IMG/VR virus record: IMGVR_UViG_3300037961_005709
Coordinates: 1-43,890 of that record
Origin: a virus
Strand: one strand, 5' to 3'
DNA: 43,890 nt
Positions 3,655 through 27,210 of the stretch are shown here, one piece after another. The notes beneath the pieces were generated by a model. It had not been told where the DNA came from. It did not search any database and saw nothing but the letters and a program-made list of their open reading frames with translations. Numbering within the stretch: position 1 is the stretch's first letter; each line of letters starts with the position of its first letter. Both the position numbers and the translations under genes were made by a program.

Positions 3655-3765
3655 ATTATAGCAGAAAACCGCCTACTAGAAGAAGTAGACGGTTCTCTAA
3701 GTGGCTTATACTGTGATCTTCAACCCAGACAAAGGTAGTCTACAGAGATTCTCTTAACTTGTCAA
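3655..3765 (-). promoter_or_regulatory. Multi-promoter region upstream of the helicase
   Basis: Three leftward promoter candidates are packed into about 110 nt. (1) TTGACA (3765-3760), 17-nt spacer, TAGACT (3742-3737). (2) TTGTCT (3732-3727), 16-nt spacer, TATAAG (3710-3705). (3) A perfect extended -10, TGCTATAAT (3663-3655), with no good -35. The first overlaps the end of the 2OG oxygenase gene. Together they mark the border between the tail-fibre-side genes and the early-type block and should serve the helicase. Confidence 0.6.
3667..3694 (-). terminator. Hairpin, possible terminator or attenuator
   Basis: AACCGTCTACT, loop TCTTCT, AGTAGGCGGTT on the minus strand form an 11-bp stem with one mismatch, followed by a short TTTT tract. 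It lies after the 2OG oxygenase gene and just before the extended -10 at 3655. The short U tract makes termination only moderately likely. Since two promoter candidates lie upstream of it, it could instead be an attenuator or a 5' leader structure for the helicase. Confidence 0.5.
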
Positions 3766-4398
3766 GCGTCCGTTCTTGTTTGTTGCTCGACATCCAAAGA
3801 AAGATGTGATAGCATATCTACCATTACCTTCAAAGTAATCGGAATCTTTGATAGTAACTTTTCTGACAGCATGTTCTACCCAACCAGGAAAAATTACCAT
3901 GGTATTGTTATCACATGAAATTTTAAAGTCATATTCAGGAAAAATTAAATCTCCACCAGAAAATTTCTTAGGTTCTCTATAGAAATAAGAAAATGCTAAA
4001 AATTGAAAGTCTCTGTCAGTATGTGGATCATAATATTCACCATCATGATAGTACCTGACTTTAGTACAATCCCAGTTTGATTTTGGTGCTATCTTGCAGC
4101 ATGGATGAATTTCTGCAAAATTATTCAGTACTCCAGAATCAAATAATTTTCTATTTACGGTCAGAATATTTGATACAGATCTGTGCCCCTCATATACATC
4201 ATCTAGTATGAGTGCCTTTGCATTTGTATTGTCAATAACACCACCGTAATCTTTTGCTTCCACTAACTTTCCCGGTTTGGTAAGAAAGTTTAGTTCTTCC
4301 CATACAAGTTCCAGTTCTAATTCATTATAAAAATTTTTAATAATCATCAAGGGAAAAGGTTCTTGATGAACTGTTGCCTCTAGAATTTCACTTTTCAT
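3754..4398 (-). CDS. 2OG-Fe(II) oxygenase (prolyl-hydroxylase-like) A
   Basis: 214 aa from ATG 4398 (MKSEILEATV), which overlaps the previous gene's stop by 11 nt; a longer in-frame start would extend far into that gene. The double-stranded beta-helix signature is complete: HTD (His126, Asp128), distal His176 in WVEHAV and 2-oxoglutarate-binding Arg194 in GRYAIT. The enzyme should be soluble and iron-dependent, oxidising an unknown substrate. Phage homologues are common in T4-like cyanophages, but substrates are not settled to my knowledge. It lies in tandem with a second, sequence-divergent 2OG oxygenase at the end of the fibre/adhesin gene run. Confidence 0.85.
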   Translation of the reverse strand: MKSEILEATVHQEPFPLMIIKNFYNELELELVWEELNFLTKPGKLVEAKDYGGVIDNTNAKALILDDVYEGHRSVSNILTVNRKLFDSGVLNNFAEIHPCCKIAPKSNWDCTKVRYYHDGEYYDPHTDRDFQFLAFSYFYREPKKFSGGDLIFPEYDFKISCDNNTMVIFPGWVEHAVRKVTIKDSDYFEGNGRYAITSFFGCRATNKNGRLTS

Positions 4399-4981
4399 TT
4401 TTAACAGTATCATTTGGAGTTGGTTGAATCCATCCCCATGTAGTAGCAAGATATTTTGTACCACCTAAGGGAGGATTGCCTCTATGAGTATGTGTATATT
4501 GGCATGGAAAGATAATTACATCTCCTGCCGATGCTTTTTCTCGTTTATTGATATATAAAAATTCTGTTTCTCCACCATCAAAGTCATCATTAAGATAGGT
4601 TTGAACAACAAATGTTCTACCACAACTTAAATAGTCACCATTCTCGTAGTGCCAGGAATGAAATCCCGCACCAGCTTCAAGTTTCTTTATTTTCATATCA
4701 TAAATTATAAACTTTCTTTGTCCCAAAACAGTATATTTTTCTAGATACTGATCCACACAAGTTTTTAACTTGGGAAACATCAATTTATTGACTCTAGTTG
4801 CTGATGCAAAGTCAACTTCAAAGTCAACATTTACATTGATTGCTTTTTGATCCTGTAAGTGTGGATTTTGTTCTGTCCTAAACAACCTCTGTGTTTCTTC
4901 AAAAAATTCTATTTCTTGAATGATGTCTCTACACTCTTGTCGAGTAAAAGTCTCTTTATAGCGACAAATAAAATCGTCCAT
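4388..4981 (-). CDS. 2OG-Fe(II) oxygenase (prolyl-4-hydroxylase-like) B
   Basis: 197 aa. Iron ligands are visible as WHYE (His111, Glu113, an H-x-E variant of H-x-D) and a distal histidine in YTHTHRGN (His166). Lys176 in GTKYLATTW replaces the usual Arg for the 2-oxoglutarate carboxylate. GGETEF (137-142) is the family's typical turn. Likely a soluble dioxygenase that hydroxylates a protein or small molecule; the substrate is unknown. The stop overlaps the next 2OG gene, so the two are probably translationally coupled. A 29-nt gap separates it from the glycine-rich protein upstream, without a recognised promoter. Confidence 0.85.
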   Translation of the reverse strand: MDDFICRYKETFTRQECRDIIQEIEFFEETQRLFRTEQNPHLQDQKAINVNVDFEVDFASATRVNKLMFPKLKTCVDQYLEKYTVLGQRKFIIYDMKIKKLEAGAGFHSWHYENGDYLSCGRTFVVQTYLNDDFDGGETEFLYINKREKASAGDVIIFPCQYTHTHRGNPPLGGTKYLATTWGWIQPTPNDTVKNEK

Positions 4982-14165: not shown

Positions 14166-14194
14166 ATTATAGGGTATCTGGGTGGGGGTGTCAA
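14166..14194 (-). promoter_or_regulatory. Perfect consensus sigma70 promoter for the tRNA/antitoxin-like island
   Basis: Minus strand TTGACA (14194-14189), exactly 17 nt spacer, TATAAT (14171-14166). The -35 overlaps the stop codon of the upstream fibre gene. It precedes the 65-aa gene (ATG 14141) and co-directional Phd-like, tRNA and 103-aa genes. A 6/6 plus 6/6 match with ideal spacing is very unlikely by chance and indicates strong transcription by host RNA polymerase. Confidence 0.88.
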
Positions 14195-15270
14195 GTCTTC
14201 ATGATATAGCAGAGAGCATAGTATGGTGGAAGGTTCTTGTTAGTTCCAGTCTCACCTTCACTATTTACACTAATACCGGTTGTTTGATTTTGCGTATTTG
14301 TTGAGGAGTTGGACCTATCGAGTGCGTAATCAGCACCCACCGCGTAGGGATTACCCGACGAAGCGGAGGTTTGAAGGGTAAAGGTGTGAGCATGTCCCGG
14401 GTCAGTAATTCCGTGGTTGTGGCTAACAACAACAGCATCAGCACTACCACCAGTAGCATCAACAGAATAATTATTTCCAGCACCAACAACAAATTTATCT
14501 CTTAAGTCGGGAGTACTATTGTTGCCGTCACACAAAACATATCCAGCCGGAATTGCATTAGAGGCACCAGACCATAACATTATAACACCTGATGGTATGG
14601 CACCACCAGAACCAGTACCAGTACTAGCTTCGGTTTCATAATAAACAGCTACATGTCCGTGATCAAGAGTTCGACCATTTGCAGTTTTTATTCTTAATCT
14701 GTCAAGTGCATTTGTTAGTGATATACTACCACCACCATGTATTACTGCCCCGTTGCTATCACTTGTACCACCTGTATGTGAAATAGTCCAACTGTTTCCA
14801 TTTACATTGACTAATTCTACAGTGATATTTTGTTCAAGACCAGAATTTGTATCATCACTAAGTCCATAAGCATTAGTTCTACTTCGTGCATCTGGACCGT
14901 TGTCTCTGTTATCATAAGATGATTGATATCCACTAGTAGCATATCCAGTACTATCACCAACATGCATAATAAGTTCATCATTAGCACCAGCATAACCAAA
15001 ATTGTGAATAGCTACGGTGATTTTCTTAGCAGTGGATGGGATATTAGTGAATGCTGCTTCGGTTCCAGAATTAGTTGCTACTGTTCCATGTTTTACTAAA
15101 GAACCACCACCAGAAATAGAACCCGTAACAGTCAAATTACCACCAATGGTAACATTATTTGAAATTGCAGTGGTTGGTGCAGTCAGATTTAAAGTATTGT
15201 CACTTTGAATCGTTGGAGTTCCTGTACCAATTAATTCTAATTGCTTAACACCAAATTTCTTATCTGCCAT
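14191..15270 (-). CDS. Short tail fibre with phage collar domain (359 aa)
   Basis: N-terminal fibre-attachment-like segment MADKKFGVKQLELIGTGTPT, then a strand repeat NNVTIGGNLTVTGSISGG (38-55). Next comes a beta-sandwich module of about 140 residues (IPSTAKKITVAIHNFGYAGA ... LDRLRIKTANGRTLDHG). The C-terminus is a T4 gp12-type collar domain (GVIMLWSGASNAIPAGYVLC DG, PDLRDKFVVGAG, VVVSHNHGITDPGHAH) ending NLPPYYALCYIMKT. HNH and HAH histidines may bind a metal, as in gp12. Both the sandwich and collar modules recur in the 1692-aa fibre. Likely part of the host-recognition fibre set. A TCTAAATA motif lies 18 nt upstream. Confidence 0.82.
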   Translation of the reverse strand: MADKKFGVKQLELIGTGTPTIQSDNTLNLTAPTTAISNNVTIGGNLTVTGSISGGGSLVKHGTVATNSGTEAAFTNIPSTAKKITVAIHNFGYAGANDELIMHVGDSTGYATSGYQSSYDNRDNGPDARSRTNAYGLSDDTNSGLEQNITVELVNVNGNSWTISHTGGTSDSNGAVIHGGGSISLTNALDRLRIKTANGRTLDHGHVAVYYETEASTGTGSGGAIPSGVIMLWSGASNAIPAGYVLCDGNNSTPDLRDKFVVGAGNNYSVDATGGSADAVVVSHNHGITDPGHAHTFTLQTSASSGNPYAVGADYALDRSNSSTNTQNQTTGISVNSEGETGTNKNLPPYYALCYIMKT

Positions 15271-15300: not shown

Positions 15301-17505
15301 CTATGAAATAGTCACGTTTCCACTAATAGTTAAATTACCAGAAATTGATAATTTCATCAATCCACTCATTCGAGCATCCCAAAGAATTTTTCTTGCTCCA
15401 CCTTGTAAATTTCTATATGAATTCCAATTAGAGTCATTAGATGTTGTAGCTTCAGTTCCTTGAAGAAATTCTGCATCACTTGATTGATCTGTAACTTTGG
15501 TTTCTAACCAATTTTTCAAATCACTCCAAGTCCAATTTCTATTGTATTGAAGTTTAGTTGCAAATAACCCTGCACTAACAGGACAAGCAGAACTTGTTCC
15601 ACCAAATCTTCGATCGTAAGAAGTAGCAGATAAAGTTCCACCTGATTGTACGATATTATAATTTGAATCTATTCTATAATTGGAATCGTTTCTTGGAAGA
15701 TACCCAGCACCACCACCCTGAGCTCCAATAGAATCATCTCCAATAGTGTAAAAATCTACACCATTTCCCATGTTACTATAAGATATTTTCCGTTCTTGAT
15801 AAGTTCCATCACCGTTTGAAACGGTCTGATCATCAAGAGCACCGACATTAAAGGTACGATAGACATCTACTCCACCACCATTATAATTTGGAACATTTCC
15901 AATACAATTGGGATTTCCGACACGATTGACCATAAGACCAAATGATTCTGCAAGTGATAATGTTCTGCTACTACTGGAACTTACGTAATTATTATAATTT
16001 GGATGATCACCTTTGACTTGTTGATTATTATTATTTCCTGAAGACCCTAAAAAGATTACTCCAGAATCAAGCATTGCTGCACCTTCAACCATCGTAGAAT
16101 CTGTAGGTGGATACCAAAGAGCATGTCTATTACCGGAATAAAATTTACTTAACCATGCTGGTGAACTAACACTTGAACCCGACACACTAATTGTTTCTTC
16201 ACCAGTCCCATCACCAGGAGTACGAAAATAAGCATAGTTGCCATTAGAAAATGATGTTGTTGATCCCCAACTATTACTGGTAACTGTTGGATTCTTTGTG
16301 CCGTCAGATGATCTACTTGGTTTTAAGTCATGAAAAACTTTCATGACTTCGTATAATATTGATGTGCTAACTGCTCCACTAGCCCAAATAATACTAATAA
16401 ACCATTTATTTGCATTATATGCCCAACCATGAGTTTTTCCATATGATTGTGACATACAAGGAGTTCCATGTGATGCTAAAGAACCATTATATTGTCCCGT
16501 ATGTAGAGAGGTATTACTCCCATTATGTGCGGATTCGGTATAGTTTGAACTAATAGATATTGATCCAAAGTCCTCTTTACTTCCTATGGTAGCAGTTCCA
16601 CCTAAATCTGTACTAACATATTTTGCCGATCTATATGCTATGCTTTCATAACTCCACCAATCTCTTGCTACAGATTCAACTGGAACAGTAGTTCCATCCC
16701 AACGGATTCTTAATCTCGTATTAGGATTAGCTTCAAAAAAATCGGGATCAATATAATACGGAGCATGTAGAATTACGTCCAATACACCACATACTCCTGT
16801 TGTAGCAGAAGGGGCAAATCCACTTTTTAGTACATTTGTTCCAACAAAATTTGTGGGTTCACCAACACCAGTTTTGACAAATTCAACATGACCAAACCAT
16901 GCTGATGTATCATTTACAATAATATCAACATCTGTCCCATCTCCATATTGTTCCGGATTATCTGTAATGATGTCACCATCATCAAGATTTTTCCACGGAC
17001 TCTCTAAAGTTTGGTGTCTGTAGATTTGAGCAGCAGTTTTTGATAACCAAGAAGAATCGCTTCCACTATTAAAACCAGAAGCTGAGGTATCAAGGGATAT
17101 TTTCACATTCTGACTATATCTTGCAGTTTTAGTCGCAGGTTCAGATGTTGGATATGTATCAAGACCTTTGTAAGTACCCTCATAATATCCCTCATCAATG
17201 TTCACACCAATAATTTTTGGATGATTTTTTAATTGTTCTGCTTCCGCATCTGAAATTTCGTAGGATGCAATTCGATCACAAGTTTTTTTTAAATTAGTAC
17301 ATTCAATTCTTCGATTTGGAATATTATCAAGTTCATTTTCATTAACAATATAATTATGAATTTCATTCCAGTCTGATGCATTTTCACATACAACACAATA
17401 AACTTTCGGACCTGTTCCATCAGGCACAAAACGCAGTCCCTCTGCCTTATGTTGCTCTATTCTTAGTGTTTCGTATTCTTCATAATTAAAATTTGTTTCT
17501 ATCAT
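15301..17505 (-). CDS. Subtilisin-like serine protease (S8) with I9-like propeptide and fibre-like C-terminus
   Basis: 734 aa. Residues about 35-105 resemble an inhibitor-I9 propeptide, ending YEISDAEAEQLKNHPKIIGV. The catalytic triad is visible in family order: Asp199 in DVDIIVNDTSAWFGHVEF, His346 in SHGTPCMSQSYG and Ser638 in FGGTSSACPVSAG. Further marks are SNSWG (410-414), the oxyanion Asn491 in GSSGNNN and YSNMGNGVDFYTIG before the serine. An insert of about 140 residues separates the Asp and His blocks. No signal peptide is present. The C-terminus LSISGNLTISGNVTIS resembles the strand repeat of the adjacent fibre (NNVTIGGNLTVTGSISGG). Inference: a virion-associated protease that docks on or is built into the tail fibres, acting on host surface proteins or maturing fibres. 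It lies between two collar-domain fibre genes. Confidence 0.88.
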   Translation of the reverse strand: MIETNFNYEEYETLRIEQHKAEGLRFVPDGTGPKVYCVVCENASDWNEIHNYIVNENELDNIPNRRIECTNLKKTCDRIASYEISDAEAEQLKNHPKIIGVNIDEGYYEGTYKGLDTYPTSEPATKTARYSQNVKISLDTSASGFNSGSDSSWLSKTAAQIYRHQTLESPWKNLDDGDIITDNPEQYGDGTDVDIIVNDTSAWFGHVEFVKTGVGEPTNFVGTNVLKSGFAPSATTGVCGVLDVILHAPYYIDPDFFEANPNTRLRIRWDGTTVPVESVARDWWSYESIAYRSAKYVSTDLGGTATIGSKEDFGSISISSNYTESAHNGSNTSLHTGQYNGSLASHGTPCMSQSYGKTHGWAYNANKWFISIIWASGAVSTSILYEVMKVFHDLKPSRSSDGTKNPTVTSNSWGSTTSFSNGNYAYFRTPGDGTGEETISVSGSSVSSPAWLSKFYSGNRHALWYPPTDSTMVEGAAMLDSGVIFLGSSGNNNNQQVKGDHPNYNNYVSSSSSRTLSLAESFGLMVNRVGNPNCIGNVPNYNGGGVDVYRTFNVGALDDQTVSNGDGTYQERKISYSNMGNGVDFYTIGDDSIGAQGGGAGYLPRNDSNYRIDSNYNIVQSGGTLSATSYDRRFGGTSSACPVSAGLFATKLQYNRNWTWSDLKNWLETKVTDQSSDAEFLQGTEATTSNDSNWNSYRNLQGGARKILWDARMSGLMKLSISGNLTISGNVTIS

Positions 17506-17509
17506 TGAT

Positions 17510-20500
17510 TTACATTACCTCACGTTTAATTCGATATGTAGTATTTCCAGTCACACCTGTCTCTGGTGTAGCTCGTAGTAAAACGTTACTACCACTAATC
17601 GTGGCGTCAAGTTGAACTAAAAGATTGTTGCTGTACATAACCGCAAATTGAGATGAATCGACTGTTGTTCCATCTCTCATTACTAGTAATTTTTGAGTTT
17701 GATAATCGGATCCATTCTTGACGAATACAGTGTATTCAAATACAAGTTCTGCGGAATCATAAGTGTAACTCTCTAATGTAGATGGAGATCCAGCAGTTGC
17801 GGTGAATGTTCCTGAAGAAACTGTTCCCCCACTACCACCAGAACTAGAACCACCACCTGGTCCCTCGCAGAGGATTGAGATGCGTCCACCATCAAAACAT
17901 CTACTAGTACCATTCTCCGAAGTGAATCTGATACGGTCAAATACGGAGACTGTCGTCGAACTAGCAAAAGAACCAGCAAATTGACGCATACCACCACTGG
18001 TTCCGTGGGTAATTTGTCCCGTAGCAACCCAACCTCGGGTATTGTCTTGACGACTACGTTCAATCACCATCCTACCACTGGGGGTCGCACTATTTGAAGC
18101 TACGTTGATTATAAAACCATCTGTGCTATGTCGGATGCTATTTCCAGTCTGGTTTGTGGAAGATGAATTATAAACTCCGGCAGAGTAATTACCTGAGGTG
18201 TTGCCTAATTGAACCAACCAATCTTGACCTGACCCAGGAGATACATCATGAAACATGATGATAATTCTCTGAGTGTCTTCTGGTATTCCAGTCCACTCAA
18301 CATTAGATCCAGTTTCGGATTGTACATTTTGATAATCTGCCAACCAAGTTTGATTATTACCAGAACTACTAGAACTACTAGAACCACCACCAGAACTTAA
18401 ATCTTGAACAACTATCTGAGAGTAAACTTCATCTACACCAAAATTTGATTCAATACCCAAACCATTACTATTTTGAGTGGCAACACATCTATGCTGAAGC
18501 TTAAAGTAAGTTGTCTCAGTAATTGTAACGACAGTTTCTCCAAAAGATCTAGTTTGAGTATTTGGTTCTATACCAGAAGAATCAAATTCACTAGTACCTT
18601 GAATGTTAGTTGGGCTAGTAAAACTGGTGTTATTGGCATGGACTAATTGTGTTTTATGTTCTCCGGTGTTATATGCTGGGGCACTCCAATTTATTTTATA
18701 GGTTCCAGACTCTAATGCAAAATAGTCATTACTAGAACTAAAAGTGACAAAAGATTCTGGATCAACTTCCGTGTTTAATGTTCTATCAATCCATGAACCA
18801 GAAGCAAAACTACCACCAGCAGTTCCTGAAGATTTTACATCAGATAAAATTGCTACTTTTATAGTTCCTCCACTACCACCAGAACCACCAGAACCACTAG
18901 TCTTATATGAAAGACCAATAAGTCCACCAGTATCAAAATTACCATTACTAGTACTTACTTTTAATCTGTCTACAACTCCACTTATTGAATATACAGAACC
19001 AAAAGTATCAGATGAAGCAGTATCAGATCTTTTAAATTGACCAATTTGACTATAAGAATTAGAAGATGATTTATTAATAATCATCGAACCATGGAGCGAA
19101 TCAGAAGCATCATCACTCCTAATTACGAATGATGTTGTAGAAGTTGACTGACTGGTTCCTTGAGCAACTTCGGATGAACTATTATAATTGCTAGTAATAT
19201 AACCACTAGAAGTTCCCAATTGTACATCGAAGTCCGCTGCTTGGCTGCCTGATACTCCCTCAAACATTAGAGTTATTTCTAATGCGTCCGCAGGAATACC
19301 GGTGAATTCTACTGACGTTCCAGTTGCAGATTTTCGTTCTAGCAATACAAATCCACTACCAGATCCAGAACCAGAACCAGAACCACTTGTTGCAGTGTGC
19401 TTGATGATATAGCAGAGAGAATAATATGGTGGAAGGTTTGCGTTGGTTCCTGATTGAGTATTGTTTACATTTCCATCAGCATCTACTCCAGCGGTATCAG
19501 TGCGTGAATTTGAATTATAAGTAGCATCATTAGGATGTGCAGTATGAGAATCCCAATCAAGAGTAGCATCCGTACCTGCTCTTACAGGATGTCTATAACC
19601 AGACTCATTTCCATATGTCCCGTGAGAGTGAGAAGCAACAACAGAATTGGCACTACCACCAGTTGCACCAGGAGAAAGACCTGGATATGTAGTATCTCCA
19701 GTACTATCAGTAGCACCAATAATAAATTTATCTCTCAAATCAGGAACATTAGAACCAGTAATTGCCTGAAGTGCTGATGTTTGTGCTGATCCCCCATCAC
19801 AAAGTTGATATTCTGAAGGAATAGAAGCAACAGAACCTGCCCAGGCAACAATAGTGCCTACAGGGTCTGAACTACCACCACCAGAGGCATCTTGCCATGT
19901 GGGAGCACTTCCAGAACCATTAGAAGTTAATACTTGACCAGAGGTTCCATAGTTAGCACCACTAAGACCAATTTGTCCAGAAGGTCCGATCTCAAACCTT
20001 ATTCCACCACCAGTGGAATCCATAAATCTAAGTCTACCCGAATCAGTACTTGATGATCCATAAACATCAATTTCAAAAGCAGCAACATCATCTGCTGCTC
20101 TATTGAATACCAGAGATCCACCTTCATTAGAACTATCTTGTCTATGTATTTTTGGACTATCAGTATCAACAGAAAATATCTCCGTAGCATCAATTTCTAC
20201 GGTGAATTTAGATTCTGTTGCAGTATCAATTATTTCTGCTTTTGAATCTCCTTCAGAAATTTTATCACTTGATGATGATCCTCCAGAAGCACTCTGCCAT
20301 GTAGGAGCACTTCCAGAACCATTAGAAGTTAATACTTGACCAGAAGTTCCATAGTTAGCACCACTAAGACCAATTTGTCCAGCAGGTCCAATACGTAATC
20401 TTTCAGTTCCTTCTGTAGTTACCTTAAAATGTCCATCAGAACCAGTGTCTACAACTTCTGCTTCTGTATTTCCTTCAGTGATCTTATCTACATATGCTCC

Positions 20501-22588
20501 ACTACCAGAACTATTAGACTTATATGAAACTCCAATTGTACCAGTCGTAAAACTCTGAGCTGAACCTGTAGTATGGTTAGCAAGAATTCGTATTCTGGTT
20601 ATTTCTGCATCACTACTGATTAAATCTACACCACCATAACTTTGACATGCACTAGCACAATTCTCGCAATTGACTGGTCCATTGTTCCATCTTTTAAACT
20701 GTCCAATCTGCGTATAAGTCTTACTCGGACTTGTTCGAAGTAGATTGATAATCATTGAACCGGTAAAACGATTACCGGTAGCAGTTGCACCATTTCGATT
20801 ATGAATTGGAAATCCAAGATCACTGGAAATATCGTAAGTTGCATTTTCTGCTTCAGAAGAAGCATAATATCCAGTTTGAATCCAACCAGAACTTGTCCCC
20901 AACTGCACTAACAGGTGGTAACTAACTCCTGTAAGTCCAACTTCATTGAGCATTAATGTAATTTCTCTTGCATCTGCAGGAATATTGTCGAATACTACTT
21001 CATTTCCTGTTGCTGCTTTTGCTGTTAGGAGTCCAAATGCATTTCCACCTGGAGCAGTATTACCACTTGGTCCAGTGTGCTTGATGATGTAGCAGAGAGC
21101 ATAATATGGTGGGAGGTTTGCGTTGGTTCCTGTTTGTGTGGTTGAGTTGGCACCAGTATTAGTCCTACCCTCAGTTGATGTAGTATCGGTTGTAACGTTA
21201 CTTAGCTCAGCACCATGAGCTCCACCTGATGCTAGTGTCCTATATGTTGCACGGCCATAAGTATGATAGTGAGAAATCAAGACAGCATTAGCACTACCAC
21301 CAGTTGCACCAGGAGAAAGATTTGGATATGTGGTATCACCAACACTATCATAAGCACCAACAATAAATTTATTTCTTAGGTCGGGAACATTGGAACCAGT
21401 AATTGCTTGCAAGTCTGCCGTTGCTGCTAAACCTCCATCACATAACTGATACCCAGCAGGAATAGAGGCAGATGTACCAGACCATGCCATGATAGTTCCT
21501 ACAGGCTCCCCTCCACCACCTCCACCAGAAGGAGCATCAACAAATTCTAAAGCATTTGCCGCAGAATTTACTTTTATCCATTTATCTGCAGTATATGAAC
21601 TTGGAGTATCACTGAGACCAATGAAAGTAGTGGTTCCAATTGTAGTACTATCGACAAAATCTACACCATTTTGAGTGTTATTTACTACAAGAACTTTTCC
21701 TGCTGATCCAACATATGTGCTAGGAGTATCGGAAAGTCCTATAAATGTACTTATTATATTGCCACCACTAGAAGCTGCAGTTATTCTTCCATCAACATCA
21801 ACAGTTATACTAGGATTGGTATAAGTACCAGCAGAAACTCCAGTTGCAATTAATTCTGTGGGTCCAACAGTATCTTGATCTATGTTCCATACCGTTCCAC
21901 TACTACTAACGGTAATATCACCATAGTCTCCGTCAGGAACACCAGAACCAGTGGAACTAGAGGTATTAACTTTGATAATATAACAAAGTGCATAATATGG
22001 TGGAAGGTTTGCATTTAATGTCGATGAACCTTCAGTTGTGGTAGAACCACTGACACCTAAAGTACCAGAATAAGTGGTATACCACATTTTTCCATTACCA
22101 CTACTGCTACTATCAGCATCCATGCTAAAACCACCATTGGTGTTAGTATTCCAACCAGCTACACCATTAGCAAATGCTAAATGATCATCTCCAGGAAAAT
22201 TGTGTCTGTGATTAGCAGCACTAAGTGTTCCAGCACCATGATTGTGTGATGGAAGTGTTGCGTAAGCACTACCACCTGTTGCACCAGGAGTAAGACCTGG
22301 ATATGTAGTATCACCACTATAAGGAACACCAACAACAAATTTATCAACTAAATTTGGAATATTGAATGTAATTACTCCATCACCGGATCCATGTATAGTA
22401 CCTAGCGCAGTAAAAAGATCTGGATAATCAGTTCTTGATAATGCCTGACCATCACATAATCTGAAATTAGATGGTATATTTGCTGTGCTTCCACCCCAAG
22501 CAATGATAGATCCTATGGCTTCTCCACCGGGTGCTCCGGCAAACCCCATCTCTACCCATTGTCCATTATGGCGTACTTTTATACCCAT
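17510..22588 (-). CDS. Giant mosaic tail fibre with three collar domains (1692 aa)
   Basis: Three T4 gp12-type collar units are present, each with an IPxxxxLCDG core, PDLRxKFI/VVG, GGSA and a terminal NLPPYYALCYIIK. They lie near the N-terminus, about residues 360-510 and 905-1070. Interleaved are three copies of a beta-sandwich module (DAREITLMLNEVGLTGVSYH; DALEITLMFEGVSGSQAADF; DTQRIIIMFHDVSPGSGQDW), each with VQLGxxSG and ending in RxRI/LK strands. A C1q/TNF-like unit (about 1240-1395, with YKINWSAPAYNTGEHKTQL) precedes the last sandwich. The same collar and sandwich modules form the 359-aa fibre. It looks like a fibre grown by internal duplication; two near-identical 95-nt DNA repeats are a recent trace. 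A late motif precedes it and a fibre chaperone gene lies just upstream. Confidence 0.85.
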   Translation of the reverse strand: MGIKVRHNGQWVEMGFAGAPGGEAIGSIIAWGGSTANIPSNFRLCDGQALSRTDYPDLFTALGTIHGSGDGVITFNIPNLVDKFVVGVPYSGDTTYPGLTPGATGGSAYATLPSHNHGAGTLSAANHRHNFPGDDHLAFANGVAGWNTNTNGGFSMDADSSSSGNGKMWYTTYSGTLGVSGSTTTEGSSTLNANLPPYYALCYIIKVNTSSSTGSGVPDGDYGDITVSSSGTVWNIDQDTVGPTELIATGVSAGTYTNPSITVDVDGRITAASSGGNIISTFIGLSDTPSTYVGSAGKVLVVNNTQNGVDFVDSTTIGTTTFIGLSDTPSSYTADKWIKVNSAANALEFVDAPSGGGGGGEPVGTIMAWSGTSASIPAGYQLCDGGLAATADLQAITGSNVPDLRNKFIVGAYDSVGDTTYPNLSPGATGGSANAVLISHYHTYGRATYRTLASGGAHGAELSNVTTDTTSTEGRTNTGANSTTQTGTNANLPPYYALCYIIKHTGPSGNTAPGGNAFGLLTAKAATGNEVVFDNIPADAREITLMLNEVGLTGVSYHLLVQLGTSSGWIQTGYYASSEAENATYDISSDLGFPIHNRNGATATGNRFTGSMIINLLRTSPSKTYTQIGQFKRWNNGPVNCENCASACQSYGGVDLISSDAEITRIRILANHTTGSAQSFTTGTIGVSYKSNSSGSGAYVDKITEGNTEAEVVDTGSDGHFKVTTEGTERLRIGPAGQIGLSGANYGTSGQVLTSNGSGSAPTWQSASGGSSSSDKISEGDSKAEIIDTATESKFTVEIDATEIFSVDTDSPKIHRQDSSNEGGSLVFNRAADDVAAFEIDVYGSSSTDSGRLRFMDSTGGGIRFEIGPSGQIGLSGANYGTSGQVLTSNGSGSAPTWQDASGGGSSDPVGTIVAWAGSVASIPSEYQLCDGGSAQTSALQAITGSNVPDLRDKFIIGATDSTGDTTYPGLSPGATGGSANSVVASHSHGTYGNESGYRHPVRAGTDATLDWDSHTAHPNDATYNSNSRTDTAGVDADGNVNNTQSGTNANLPPYYSLCYIIKHTATSGSGSGSGSGSGFVLLERKSATGTSVEFTGIPADALEITLMFEGVSGSQAADFDVQLGTSSGYITSNYNSSSEVAQGTSQSTSTTSFVIRSDDASDSLHGSMIINKSSSNSYSQIGQFKRSDTASSDTFGSVYSISGVVDRLKVSTSNGNFDTGGLIGLSYKTSGSGGSGGSGGTIKVAILSDVKSSGTAGGSFASGSWIDRTLNTEVDPESFVTFSSSNDYFALESGTYKINWSAPAYNTGEHKTQLVHANNTSFTSPTNIQGTSEFDSSGIEPNTQTRSFGETVVTITETTYFKLQHRCVATQNSNGLGIESNFGVDEVYSQIVVQDLSSGGGSSSSSSSGNNQTWLADYQNVQSETGSNVEWTGIPEDTQRIIIMFHDVSPGSGQDWLVQLGNTSGNYSAGVYNSSSTNQTGNSIRHSTDGFIINVASNSATPSGRMVIERSRQDNTRGWVATGQITHGTSGGMRQFAGSFASSTTVSVFDRIRFTSENGTSRCFDGGRISILCEGPGGGSSSGGSGGTVSSGTFTATAGSPSTLESYTYDSAELVFEYTVFVKNGSDYQTQKLLVMRDGTTVDSSQFAVMYSNNLLVQLDATISGSNVLLRATPETGVTGNTTYRIKREVM
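19893..19987 (-). repeat. Direct repeat copy within the fibre gene (95 nt)
   Basis: Near-identical to 20295-20389, 402 nt (134 codons) away in the same frame. Encodes the QIGLSGANYGTSGQVLTSNG linker followed by SGSAPTW, just before the third collar unit. Confidence 0.85.
20295..20389 (-). repeat. Direct repeat partner within the fibre gene (95 nt)
   Basis: Differs from the copy at 19893-19987 at only a few positions and encodes the same linker peptide. In-frame spacing makes it a possible site of module loss or gain by recombination. Confidence 0.85.
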
Positions 22589-22968: not shown

Positions 22969-25900
22969 TTAATTTGCTATTTCTCTAATGATTATTTTTC
23001 CTACCCGGTTATATGTAGGTGAAGGAATCCAAGTATTCAAATACAATGTAGCACCAGTGTTGCTCCACAACCTTGCCTGGAAACTTATTTCAATAAGTCC
23101 AGTCTTATCTCCAAATACATGTTCTGCCGCATATGGTTGACCTGGTTGAGCAGCATCGGCATTTTCAGCTTCTCTAGTATTCCAACTATATATTATCGCA
23201 CCAGCAGCATTCCCTCCATATCCAAGAGCACCCCAACCATGATAAGGACCTTCATTTAAACCACTTAGTGGTGCATAGGTGTAAGTGTTGACTTGATTCT
23301 GATTCCATCTAGCTAGACATCTTATACCAGATCCATCATTACTGGTACTTGCCATATAAGCTGGAAAATATGCAGTAATTTCTAAATGACTATTATTGCT
23401 AATTTTATTAAACATAAGAGCCTGTGAATTTCCATTATTAAAGGTGCCGGATGAATCTCTTGTGACATTATGTGAAGTCTCACGAATACCGCCTATACCA
23501 ATATTGGTCCATGAAGTAGTATTAATAATATTTGAGGCTCCTGAAGCCCATCCAGTCGAATGGGTTGCAGTTTGTAATATTGTTCCACTAACAGTTTCAT
23601 TAGAACCGGAAGAAGTGCTGGTATCATACCAAATATCACCATCACAAACATCTGTGGTTGGTGCCGTGGATCCAACGTAACGTTTTCCATATGCATTACT
23701 TGTAGACCCAATTCCAATGGTTGCAATACCTGCGGCAATTGTTACATCAATTGGATTGCTACATCCATATTCTGTTCTTGGTGTATTTTCGTCTGAAAAT
23801 TGTTTTACGTCTAAGTCTGTTAGAGTTCCGGTTCCTCCAGAAGAAGCAATAGTAAATCCATTTCCATTACCATCTTCAGTGAGAGTGATATTTGCACCGG
23901 CAGTTACGAGAACATCATCAGTAGTGCCATCAGATGCTGTAAGTCTTATATTTACATTACCAGTACCAGGGTCATTTGTAGATAAATCATATGTTGTGTT
24001 ATCATTAGCATCAGTTTGATCTAAAATATAGATCGTTCCTACCATGTAACTGTGATATTCGCAGATATAATATAACGTATTTGGTGCATTCATTGGAACA
24101 TCAAATAATATTGTTCCAACTTCAGCTCCATTATTAGTAACTCCTGTATTATATTGATTACCAGTCCCAGTAGTAGCAGATGTCTTAATCCAAAATGGAT
24201 GACCAGATGCATTGATTTTAAATTTATACTGCTCACCTCTTGTCAGGTAAATAGTCGGATTTGCAGTTCCGGATAAATTTCCTGGACCAGTAAAATTATA
24301 AGATGATCCACCAGTAACTTCCCATTCAGAAGTATAAGTTGCTATGGTTGCAATACCAGAATTTGTTGAGTATCCGGCAATGGTGGCAAAATTTGCACTA
24401 TTGACGGTGAGATTTGTAGGACTTACCCAAGATGGTGCTGAACCTTGATTATATTGCAGCAATTCTCCAGTTACAGATCCATTGGAAATAAATTGTGTCG
24501 TATCGGCAGCACTTTGATATGGAATTTGATAAGATACTCCTCCTTTCAAATTAGTTGCTATACCAGCGTTATCTGCATAACTTACTACTAAACCTGTTGG
24601 GTTAACCCAAGATGGTGCCGATGAAGATCCATTTGATTGAAGTAATTGATTTGGATTGCCTACAGGTAAAACATTTGTATTGTTATTTGACTGTTGATAT
24701 AATAACTGATTTGTTCCATTTATCTTTATGTCAGTGGCAAGTCCCGCGTTATCCGCATAATTTGCCTTACTTACAGTAGCATTACCAAAATCAATATCTA
24801 CATTAGATGCTTGAGTTATTCTTCCTTTAGCATCAAAAGTAACGACGCCAACTTGAGTTGTAGAACCAACAGTCCCTTGAGTAATAATAGATGCTAATGT
24901 TGCCCCGGCAGTTACATCTTCATGACCTTTGAAGTCAACATTCCATGCAATATCACCTGTTGCCGCAATATTTCTAGAATTGCTTAATGAATCGGCAGTG
25001 GCAACATTTGCATCACTAAAGTTAATATCAACATTAGATGCTTGAGTTATTCTACCTTTAGAATCGAAAGTGACAACTCCAACTTGAGTCGTAGAACCAA
25101 CAGTCCCTTGAGTAATAATGTCTTTTAATGTAAGTGCAAACCCTACATTTTGAGTTCCATCAAAAGTTTTTCCTACTGCTACGATATCATCAGCATTACC
25201 TTCACCTAAAGTAAATGTTCTAGGAGTTTCTAACTTTTTAGCAACATCAGCTGTTCCCTGAAATGTACCATTGAAAAGTGTTGCATGAACATTTCCCCAC
25301 TTTTTATTGATAGATCCCAAATCATAAGTATTATCATCATCGGGAATGATATCACTATCAACCTCAGCATTAAACACTACTGAATCAGTATTAGCATCAC
25401 CAAGTGTTGTATTACCATTTACTGTAAGATTTCCAGAAACAGTAACATCATCAGGTAAACCTATTGTCAAAGTTTGGGAAGATGCACTAGTTTCAATTTC
25501 GTTTGCAGTTCCTGATATTATGAATGATTGACTATCAAGATCAACAGAACCATTTCCAGTATCTCCCGTAAAATCTAAATCTACAGCATTAATTTGATCA
25601 TCAACATATTTTTTAATCGATTGCTGAGTTGCTAAGGCATCATCTCTATCAGATGCCATATCATCTTCATCAAGAATAGTAGTGATACCAACTAAAGTTT
25701 GATTTGGTTTTCCGATTTCTAATTGATTTATTGTGGCAATGCCACTGATAACCATATCTTCACCACTAAGATCATCATAAAAAATATCATCCTTTACATA
25801 TAAATCTCCACCAACATAAAGATCTCCTCCAGTTGTTGTGATACCACCAGCAGCAGCAAGTGTTACTGCAACACCAACAGAGGGTCCAGTGAATGATACT

Positions 25901-27210
25901 GCACCACCAACATTCAAATTCTTCTCAATACCAACACCACCTTGAGAATAGATAGATCCATTATCTTTACTGGTTGATTGTGTAGCATTATCTACCAATA
26001 AAATATCTTTTACCTGAGTTCTCTGTCCCTGAGAATCTATAAGTAAGTTTCCGGAAAGAGTAGTTAATGTATTTGGATTATTAACTCCATCAACTCTAAT
26101 GTTACCTAAACTTGAGATTCCGGATACGTATAAGTTTTCAAGATTGAGGTTAGTAACATCTAAATCCGTTACAGTCGCAACTCCTGCGTGTAAATGTGTT
26201 ACTGTGGCAAATCCTATAGTTGTAAACCCAAGATATGCATTAGTTACGGTTGCAAATCCTATTTCTGCCGATCCGATAGTGGTAACTCCAAGATAAGAAT
26301 CAGTTGCCGTCAAAAATCCAACCGTAGCTTTATTTGGAAGTATATGATTGAAAAATGCATTACCTACAAACGTAGATACACCAACAACATCTAAAAGTTC
26401 CTTAGGTTGTGTACTTCCAATTCCAACCCTATGATTGTTAAAATCATAATAAAACTGTTCTGCACCACCTACAAGACCGGCAGCATTATGGAATTGAATT
26501 TGACCTATGGTTCCACCAGCACCAGAAATAACTGCTTGTGGTCTAGTCCATAAAAGACCACCATTCAACTCTTTTACTAATAAATCACCAGTGTTTCCTG
26601 GTTGATTCGTAGAATCATAAATTGTTCCTGTGATTCTAAAATTTCCATCAAGATGTAATCTCTGAGTTGGATTTATAGTTGCAATACCAACAAAACCATT
26701 TGCATTTGTTGTTACAATTGTTCCACCAGTTCCTACAGTAATTCTATCTCCGGCAGCAAACAATCCATTATTAAAAGTAAATCTAGTATCTGTAGAAAAA
26801 TCACCGCCATTTTTGAATAGTACTGAATTATTATTTCCTGGAGGTGCAACTGTAATAGTTACTGCAACACCTGGTTGGGGCAATTGAGTACCTTCTGCGG
26901 TAACACTATTACCTAAAAAATTTAATTGTGTTGTGCTACTTAGACCACCAACAAGTGTTCCTTCTTCAAATACACTAAGTGATCCTGGAATAATACCACC
27001 TTGGTTCGGAATCCAAAATCTTTCTCCTGGCCTATCAATAAAACTGACGACGATATATTGTTGTCCGGCAGGTAAATCTGGAGATCCTTGAACACTGGGA
27101 CTATCTCCAAGATTTGGTTCGGCATCTCCAACCGACAAATATCTATATCTATCTGCTGATAATGCAGATTGTGGTGTTTTTTTAGATCTTCCGGAGATAT
27201 ACTTTGGCAT
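22969..27210 (-). CDS. Giant tail-fibre protein with embedded cupredoxin-like domain (1413 aa)
   Basis: The N-terminus (MPKYISGRSKKTPQSALSAD RYRYLSVGDAEPNLGD) resembles the attachment region of cyanophage fibres. It is followed by fibre repeats (FVGIATINPTQRLHLDGNFR; HRVGIGSTQPKELLDVVGVS), a Leu/Gly shaft with duplicated VGSTTQVGVVTF segments, and linkers. Residues about 962-1064 form a cupredoxin-like unit: YLTRGEQYKFKINASGHPFW, then YYICEYHSYMVGTIYI. His1004, Cys1050, His1053 and Met1056 occupy the positions of a type 1 copper site. The last 300 residues resemble a beta-sandwich receptor-binding head (YHGWGALGYGGNAAGAIIYS, LNTWIPSPTYNRVGK). Likely a virion fibre; metal binding by the cupredoxin-like unit is inference. 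Confidence 0.8.
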   Translation of the reverse strand: MPKYISGRSKKTPQSALSADRYRYLSVGDAEPNLGDSPSVQGSPDLPAGQQYIVVSFIDRPGERFWIPNQGGIIPGSLSVFEEGTLVGGLSSTTQLNFLGNSVTAEGTQLPQPGVAVTITVAPPGNNNSVLFKNGGDFSTDTRFTFNNGLFAAGDRITVGTGGTIVTTNANGFVGIATINPTQRLHLDGNFRITGTIYDSTNQPGNTGDLLVKELNGGLLWTRPQAVISGAGGTIGQIQFHNAAGLVGGAEQFYYDFNNHRVGIGSTQPKELLDVVGVSTFVGNAFFNHILPNKATVGFLTATDSYLGVTTIGSAEIGFATVTNAYLGFTTIGFATVTHLHAGVATVTDLDVTNLNLENLYVSGISSLGNIRVDGVNNPNTLTTLSGNLLIDSQGQRTQVKDILLVDNATQSTSKDNGSIYSQGGVGIEKNLNVGGAVSFTGPSVGVAVTLAAAGGITTTGGDLYVGGDLYVKDDIFYDDLSGEDMVISGIATINQLEIGKPNQTLVGITTILDEDDMASDRDDALATQQSIKKYVDDQINAVDLDFTGDTGNGSVDLDSQSFIISGTANEIETSASSQTLTIGLPDDVTVSGNLTVNGNTTLGDANTDSVVFNAEVDSDIIPDDDNTYDLGSINKKWGNVHATLFNGTFQGTADVAKKLETPRTFTLGEGNADDIVAVGKTFDGTQNVGFALTLKDIITQGTVGSTTQVGVVTFDSKGRITQASNVDINFSDANVATADSLSNSRNIAATGDIAWNVDFKGHEDVTAGATLASIITQGTVGSTTQVGVVTFDAKGRITQASNVDIDFGNATVSKANYADNAGLATDIKINGTNQLLYQQSNNNTNVLPVGNPNQLLQSNGSSSAPSWVNPTGLVVSYADNAGIATNLKGGVSYQIPYQSAADTTQFISNGSVTGELLQYNQGSAPSWVSPTNLTVNSANFATIAGYSTNSGIATIATYTSEWEVTGGSSYNFTGPGNLSGTANPTIYLTRGEQYKFKINASGHPFWIKTSATTGTGNQYNTGVTNNGAEVGTILFDVPMNAPNTLYYICEYHSYMVGTIYILDQTDANDNTTYDLSTNDPGTGNVNIRLTASDGTTDDVLVTAGANITLTEDGNGNGFTIASSGGTGTLTDLDVKQFSDENTPRTEYGCSNPIDVTIAAGIATIGIGSTSNAYGKRYVGSTAPTTDVCDGDIWYDTSTSSGSNETVSGTILQTATHSTGWASGASNIINTTSWTNIGIGGIRETSHNVTRDSSGTFNNGNSQALMFNKISNNSHLEITAYFPAYMASTSNDGSGIRCLARWNQNQVNTYTYAPLSGLNEGPYHGWGALGYGGNAAGAIIYSWNTREAENADAAQPGQPYAAEHVFGDKTGLIEISFQARLWSNTGATLYLNTWIPSPTYNRVGKIIIREIAN
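24788..24888 (-). repeat. Direct repeat copy in the 1413-aa fibre gene
   Basis: Repeated at 25019-25119 (231 nt, 77 codons apart, same frame). Encodes IITQGTVGSTTQVGVVTF followed by K-GRITQASNVDI. About nine tenths of positions agree by eye. Confidence 0.75.
25019..25119 (-). repeat. Direct repeat partner in the 1413-aa fibre gene
   Basis: Second copy of the shaft segment at 24788-24888, indicating internal duplication of one fibre-shaft module. Confidence 0.75.

Follow-up and report, generated by a model that had tools for sequence, protein, structure and literature searches.

The subtilase gene and its catalytic residues

The window, that is the whole stretch of DNA analyzed here (the 43,890-base virus record IMGVR_UViG_3300037961_005709), originates from a marine T4-like cyanophage. 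Genes for the baseplate, tail tube, head closure and fibres have matches among phage families, and the helicase shares about 70% identity with its counterparts in Synechococcus phages Sf-CH5, S-T4 and S-SKS1. The features of the locus studied are collected in Table 1. The central one is a gene encoding a peptidase S8 (subtilase), whose product scored 40.2 bits against Pfam PF00082 (E=3e-10). As the cut-off is 21.8, the S8 match is not a chance one, and the same domain was present in 43/43 aligned family sequences. The match to phrog_9158 (E=8.9e-78) spans residues 34-715 of the protein and positions 6-560 of the 696 in the profile. The subtilisin-like protease that an earlier note had read at this locus is borne out by structure prediction of the protein alone: the AlphaFold2 model (pLDDT 82.5, pTM 0.78) shows a subtilase fold, and with it foldseek matched solved proteinase K-like enzymes and subtilisins at a probability of 1.00. 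The reading frame, strand, length and residue numbers of the catalytic Asp, His and Ser and the oxyanion Asn were also as that note gave them. Based on an alignment of 70 sequences (the window protein, its IMG/VR relatives and four isolates), these residues follow one another in the order D199, H346, N491, S638 and each is invariant (70/70). The fold and the invariant catalytic residues, both obtained by computation, thus show that this ORF encodes a subtilase. The subtilisin-like domain of tail sheath proteins (PF04984) was discarded as its identity, since it did not match the window protein and gave one weak match among 43 sequences.

Table 1. Features of the S8 locus in the window, with the evidence used to place them.
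Feature	Position	Strand	Evidence
S8 (subtilase) gene, phrog_9158 family, 734 aa	15301..17505	(-)	Pfam, PHROGs, AlphaFold2 and foldseek
I9-type propeptide-like domain, residues 34-105	17191..17406	(-)	predicted secondary structure; foldseek to 3afg, 3whi
Catalytic Asp199	16909..16911	(-)	family alignment and codon check
Long insertion between Asp and His blocks, residues 216-330	16516..16860	(-)	alignment; modelled alone
Catalytic His346	16468..16470	(-)	family alignment and codon check
Oxyanion Asn491	16033..16035	(-)	family alignment and codon check
Catalytic Ser638, in GTSSACP	15592..15594	(-)	family alignment and codon check
C-terminal strand tail LSISGNLTISGNVTIS, putative docking tag	15304..15351	(-)	tail motif count and codon check
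Upstream 1692-aa fibre, three Collar stretches, C-terminal end TPETGVTGNTTYR	17510..22588	(-)	Pfam Collar E=3.7e-29
Downstream partner, 359-aa collar-type fibre protein	14191..15270	(-)	phrog_1800
Partner N-terminal domain MADKKFGVKQLELIG...	15121..15270	(-)	alignment of such domains searched alone

The region ahead of the S8 domain is predicted to fold as E34-40 H43-55 E69-71 E79-84 H86-93 E98-103, a beta-alpha-beta-beta-alpha-beta layout. This is the strand and helix order of I9 propeptides, as the earlier note had proposed, and the solved propeptide-bearing subtilisins 3afg and 3whi are among the foldseek matches of the model; Pfam I9 itself gave no match at E<=1 in the window protein. We saw no hydrophobic stretch at the N-terminus by sequence, in agreement with the statement of the same note that there is no signal peptide.

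Mean identity to the window protein was 52-56% in the Asp, His and Ser blocks, 42% in the Asn block and 25-33% in the linkers and tails. With 53.5%, the long insertion separating the Asp and His blocks equals the active-site blocks in conservation. No known domain was recognized in it: its isolated model (pLDDT 68.6) had no PDB match at E<3. The dN/dS ratio was about 0.12-0.36 in the close IMG/VR pairs for which it could be computed, one pair being identical, and 0.22-0.25 between the window gene and those of its relatives L009 and L010, whose proteins are 75% and 72% identical to the window protein. The family is under purifying selection, and the invariant residues, the block conservation and the dN/dS values are consistent with a constrained, active enzyme.

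The partner fibre and the C-terminal tail

The earlier note had placed the gene between two collar-domain fibres. This holds for the upstream protein by Pfam Collar and for the downstream partner by phrog_1800 (tail collar fiber protein, E=1.8e-28), whose Pfam Collar match (E=0.015) was below the cut-off. The S8 gene is flanked on one side by a protein with TPxxGxxGxxTYR (or a variant) at its C-terminus and on the other by one starting with MA(D/E/N)KxFGV in P-SSM2, S-SSM7, S-SCSM1, S-SCSM2R, S-T4 and the window, and a C-terminal motif of the TPETGVTGNTTYR type is common in the genes upstream of family members. In a reduced set of IMG/VR loci a looser pattern found the flank motifs in 26/35 upstream and 28/32 downstream proteins; a first count, judged by eye to be too strict, had given 49/71 and 34/58. 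We also searched IMG/VR with the N-terminal domain of the partner alone (MADKxFGVKxIELIG...), using an alignment of eight partner proteins over their first 50 residues, S8 being absent from the search. An S8 gene was found directly upstream, 10-30 bases away, in 72 of the 79 loci kept, a fraction partly biased toward the S8-linked subset because S8 partners had supplied the query. The pairing of the S8 and partner genes is thereby shown by computation. Some contigs carry two or three S8 genes per fibre cluster, in which the order of S8 gene and partner is repeated in part. Three S8 genes lie within about 11 kb of fibre cluster in L014 (5368-16891) and L030 (5368-16450), two of them in tandem and the third after the next fibre gene. 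In those annotated regions of phage genomes that we examined, the S8 gene had genes for fibres, baseplate or virion structure nearby.

Several partners, including those at L046 6410-7186 and L036 4670-5542, end in YEYQCTxxxHxxMKGxFxIP, which by eye resembles a cupredoxin copper site. The S-SCSM2R partner is annotated as PetE, and Pfam gave no match for the L046 partner. In the window, a pair of overlapping genes at 3754-4981, near the fibre genes, has matches to 2OG-Fe(II) oxygenase families.

A short strand tail like LSISGNLTISGNVTIS was found at the end of 71/86 distinct S8 C-termini and in 5% of internal or shuffled controls, the first fraction being descriptive since the pattern was written after the tails had been seen. 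A separate background for the tail motif (60/515) includes a few S8 ORFs. The tail recurs behind differing modules, such as LamG in L009 and a glycine-rich linker in L014, and the N-terminal domain of the partner ends in similar strands. The short C-terminus that the earlier note described as mirroring the next fibre is real, with related tails across the family, and we propose that this tail and the partner's N-terminal domain may dock. LamG (lectin-type) C-termini are present in L009, L010 and S-SCSM1, whereas the window copy lacks LamG and ends in the bare tail. Another fusion, the 2140-aa protein of L007 (9995-16417, S-TIM54), comprises a propeptide-like N-terminus, an alpha/beta-hydrolase (esterase-like) region, the S8 domain and then Ig-like domains. 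Elsewhere in the window, a 1413-aa protein (22969-27210) aligns with the C-terminal region of the phrog_9158 profile (572-695); a domain without protease function may thus be common to some family members and other structural proteins.

Distribution of the family and virion record of one homologue

Searching phage genomes for S8 genes near fibre genes had been suggested beforehand. Besides the partner loci described above, tblastn with three family members as queries gave 24, 47 and 35 phage records, the 47 including the others by our comparison of the lists. All belong to Synechococcus, Prochlorococcus, cyanophage or marine single-cell viruses. The queries matched a minority of cyanophage records, and the function is therefore dispensable, host-specific or met otherwise. 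The window protein is less than 60% identical to any isolate record. The novelty implied by the earlier note, which placed S8 proteases outside the known T4-like tail set, was too strong, because such genes were already annotated in the tail region of T4-like cyanophages. PSSM2_297 of P-SSM2 and SSSM7_232 of S-SSM7 are assigned to T4-GC 292 with the record note 'contains PF00082 domain', and the S-WAM2, S-H38, S-H9-1, Sf-FR1 and S-SCSM2R records carry the labels 'subtilisin-like serine protease' or 'peptidase S8'. An S8 peptidase, T4-GC518, was mentioned in P-HM1 and P-HM2 by Sullivan et al. 2010 (PMC3037559). In view of these labels, the window gene joins a catalogued, uncharacterized family; PHROGs gives no function for phrog_9158. 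Our literature search on cyanophage or phage subtilases and tail proteases found no paper on the role of this S8 family, one 'subtilisin' match being a sheath gene label (PMC9004378). A host origin of the gene was considered and rejected: the scan of bacterial genome contigs gave two long relatives only, L096 and L097, both on phage contigs that have fibre genes in the S8 region and were binned in Gammaproteobacteria MAGs. All further matches listed in that scan were short and around the Ser block.

The homologue in S-SCSM1, gp144 (PQC12_gp144, YP_010669921.1; L005 9950-14185), has 1411 aa with an S8 domain and two LamG stretches, and the GenBank record tags it and both its neighbours as virion proteins. 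Mass spectrometry of S-SCSM1 virions is reported to have detected 45 proteins (PMC9602691), versus 47 tagged proteins by our own count of the record. The tag is found on unexpected proteins (e.g. a translational repressor) and is missing from part of the predicted structural genes, a pattern suggesting that it stands for proteins detected. The presence of one homologue in virions is thus supported by the records of others. As for the virion-borne protease put forward in the earlier note, its subtilase fold, catalytic residues and structural-gene context stand, and virion carriage is backed indirectly, through the tag on this homologue. The label of gp144, 'baseplate wedge subunit', looks wrong, its Pfam domains being S8 and LamG.

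A possible tail-mounted protease and its alternatives

We propose, at about even confidence, that the gene encodes an active, tail-mounted subtilisin-like protease of T4-like cyanophages, docked on its partner fibre and cutting host-surface proteins. The protein, lacking a signal peptide, would be produced in the cytoplasm, its propeptide would assist folding, and maturation would occur by self-cleavage. It would then be mounted on the tail through its C-terminal strand tail, docking to the N-terminal domain of the downstream fibre. At adsorption it would cut host-surface proteins, as tailspike depolymerases cut polysaccharides, and the C-terminal LamG of some relatives may help to hold the protease at the surface. 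Activity, self-processing, docking and the host-surface substrate are in each case our inferences from the features described. Against this reading, the window copy has no LamG domain, unlike its close relatives, the virion evidence stems from a homologue and a record tag, and only a minority of cyanophage records matched the S8 queries.

The main rival, which we consider rather unlikely, is a maturation protease that cuts neighbouring fibres or itself during tail assembly and is kept in the particle as a by-product. A propeptide-like domain, cytoplasmic production with no signal peptide seen and tight coupling to one fibre type, with its shared terminal motifs, would all suit such an enzyme. 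That coupling, however, fits surface action and fibre processing alike, and the LamG, Ig-like and alpha/beta-hydrolase fusions of relatives better suit the former. Up to three S8 genes per cluster also speak against a maturation enzyme, as do the many cyanophage records with T4-like genes that gave no match to the S8 queries. Surface action is favoured because lectin-type fusions recur and S8 genes are multiplied.

Some subtilases are intracellular, and a soluble protease inside the infected cell, serving host protein turnover, counter-defence or lysis, would agree with the missing signal peptide. We regard it as improbable given the fibre, baseplate or virion structural genes around the S8 gene in annotated phage regions, the virion tag on the S-SCSM1 homologue and the lectin-type fusions. 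It is very improbable that the protein is mainly a fibre component, a structural adaptor that kept the subtilase fold with proteolysis of little importance. The fold is reusable in phage tail proteins, as in the tail sheath domain PF04984 that weakly matched one relative, and the gene context is structural, but all 70 sequences keep the catalytic triad and the oxyanion residue unchanged, in contrast to their divergent linkers and tails.

A broader and more tentative reading, which we hold somewhat doubtful, is that of a dedicated protease-plus-carrier module. A strand-tagged subtilase would plug into the N-terminal domain of its partner fibre, and clusters with up to three S8 genes would supply proteases that differ in specificity, sit on the tail and strip or probe proteins of the host surface. 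The S8-partner pairing, the recurrent C-terminal tail, the multi-S8 clusters, the LamG C-termini on close relatives and the S-SCSM1 virion tag are new here. If the tail-mounted protease is true, these widespread ocean phages would have, in an enzyme paired with a fibre of its own, a new route past host-surface proteins, and this enzyme could help to determine host range in marine picocyanobacteria. Further, phrog_9158 would gain a function, the misleading label of S-SCSM1 gp144 would be corrected, and the short C-terminal tag would be available as a candidate docking signal amenable to simple tests.

Among known proteins, the window S8 protein is most directly comparable to phrog_9158 / T4-GC 292 members (PSSM2_297, SSSM7_232) and the S-SCSM2R peptidase S8, with which it shares a long profile match, the catalytic residues, the position in the fibre cluster and the partner gene. 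Its short tail sets it apart from L009 and L010. S-SCSM1 gp144 has the propeptide-like region, the S8 domain and the same motif-bearing flanking genes, yet its two LamG stretches, its greater length and its more canonical S8 motifs are different. The fold and the order of catalytic residues are those of secreted bacterial subtilases (subtilisin BPN', proteinase K-like enzymes, fervidolysin), whereas the lack of a signal peptide, the long conserved Asp-His insertion, the phage fibre context and the C-terminal strand tail are not. Known tail enzymes are mostly sugar or peptidoglycan cutters. In its proposed role, a tail enzyme clearing a host barrier, the S8 protein would resemble phage tailspike depolymerases and tail lysozymes, although its fold is unrelated to theirs and it would cut protein instead of polysaccharide or peptidoglycan.
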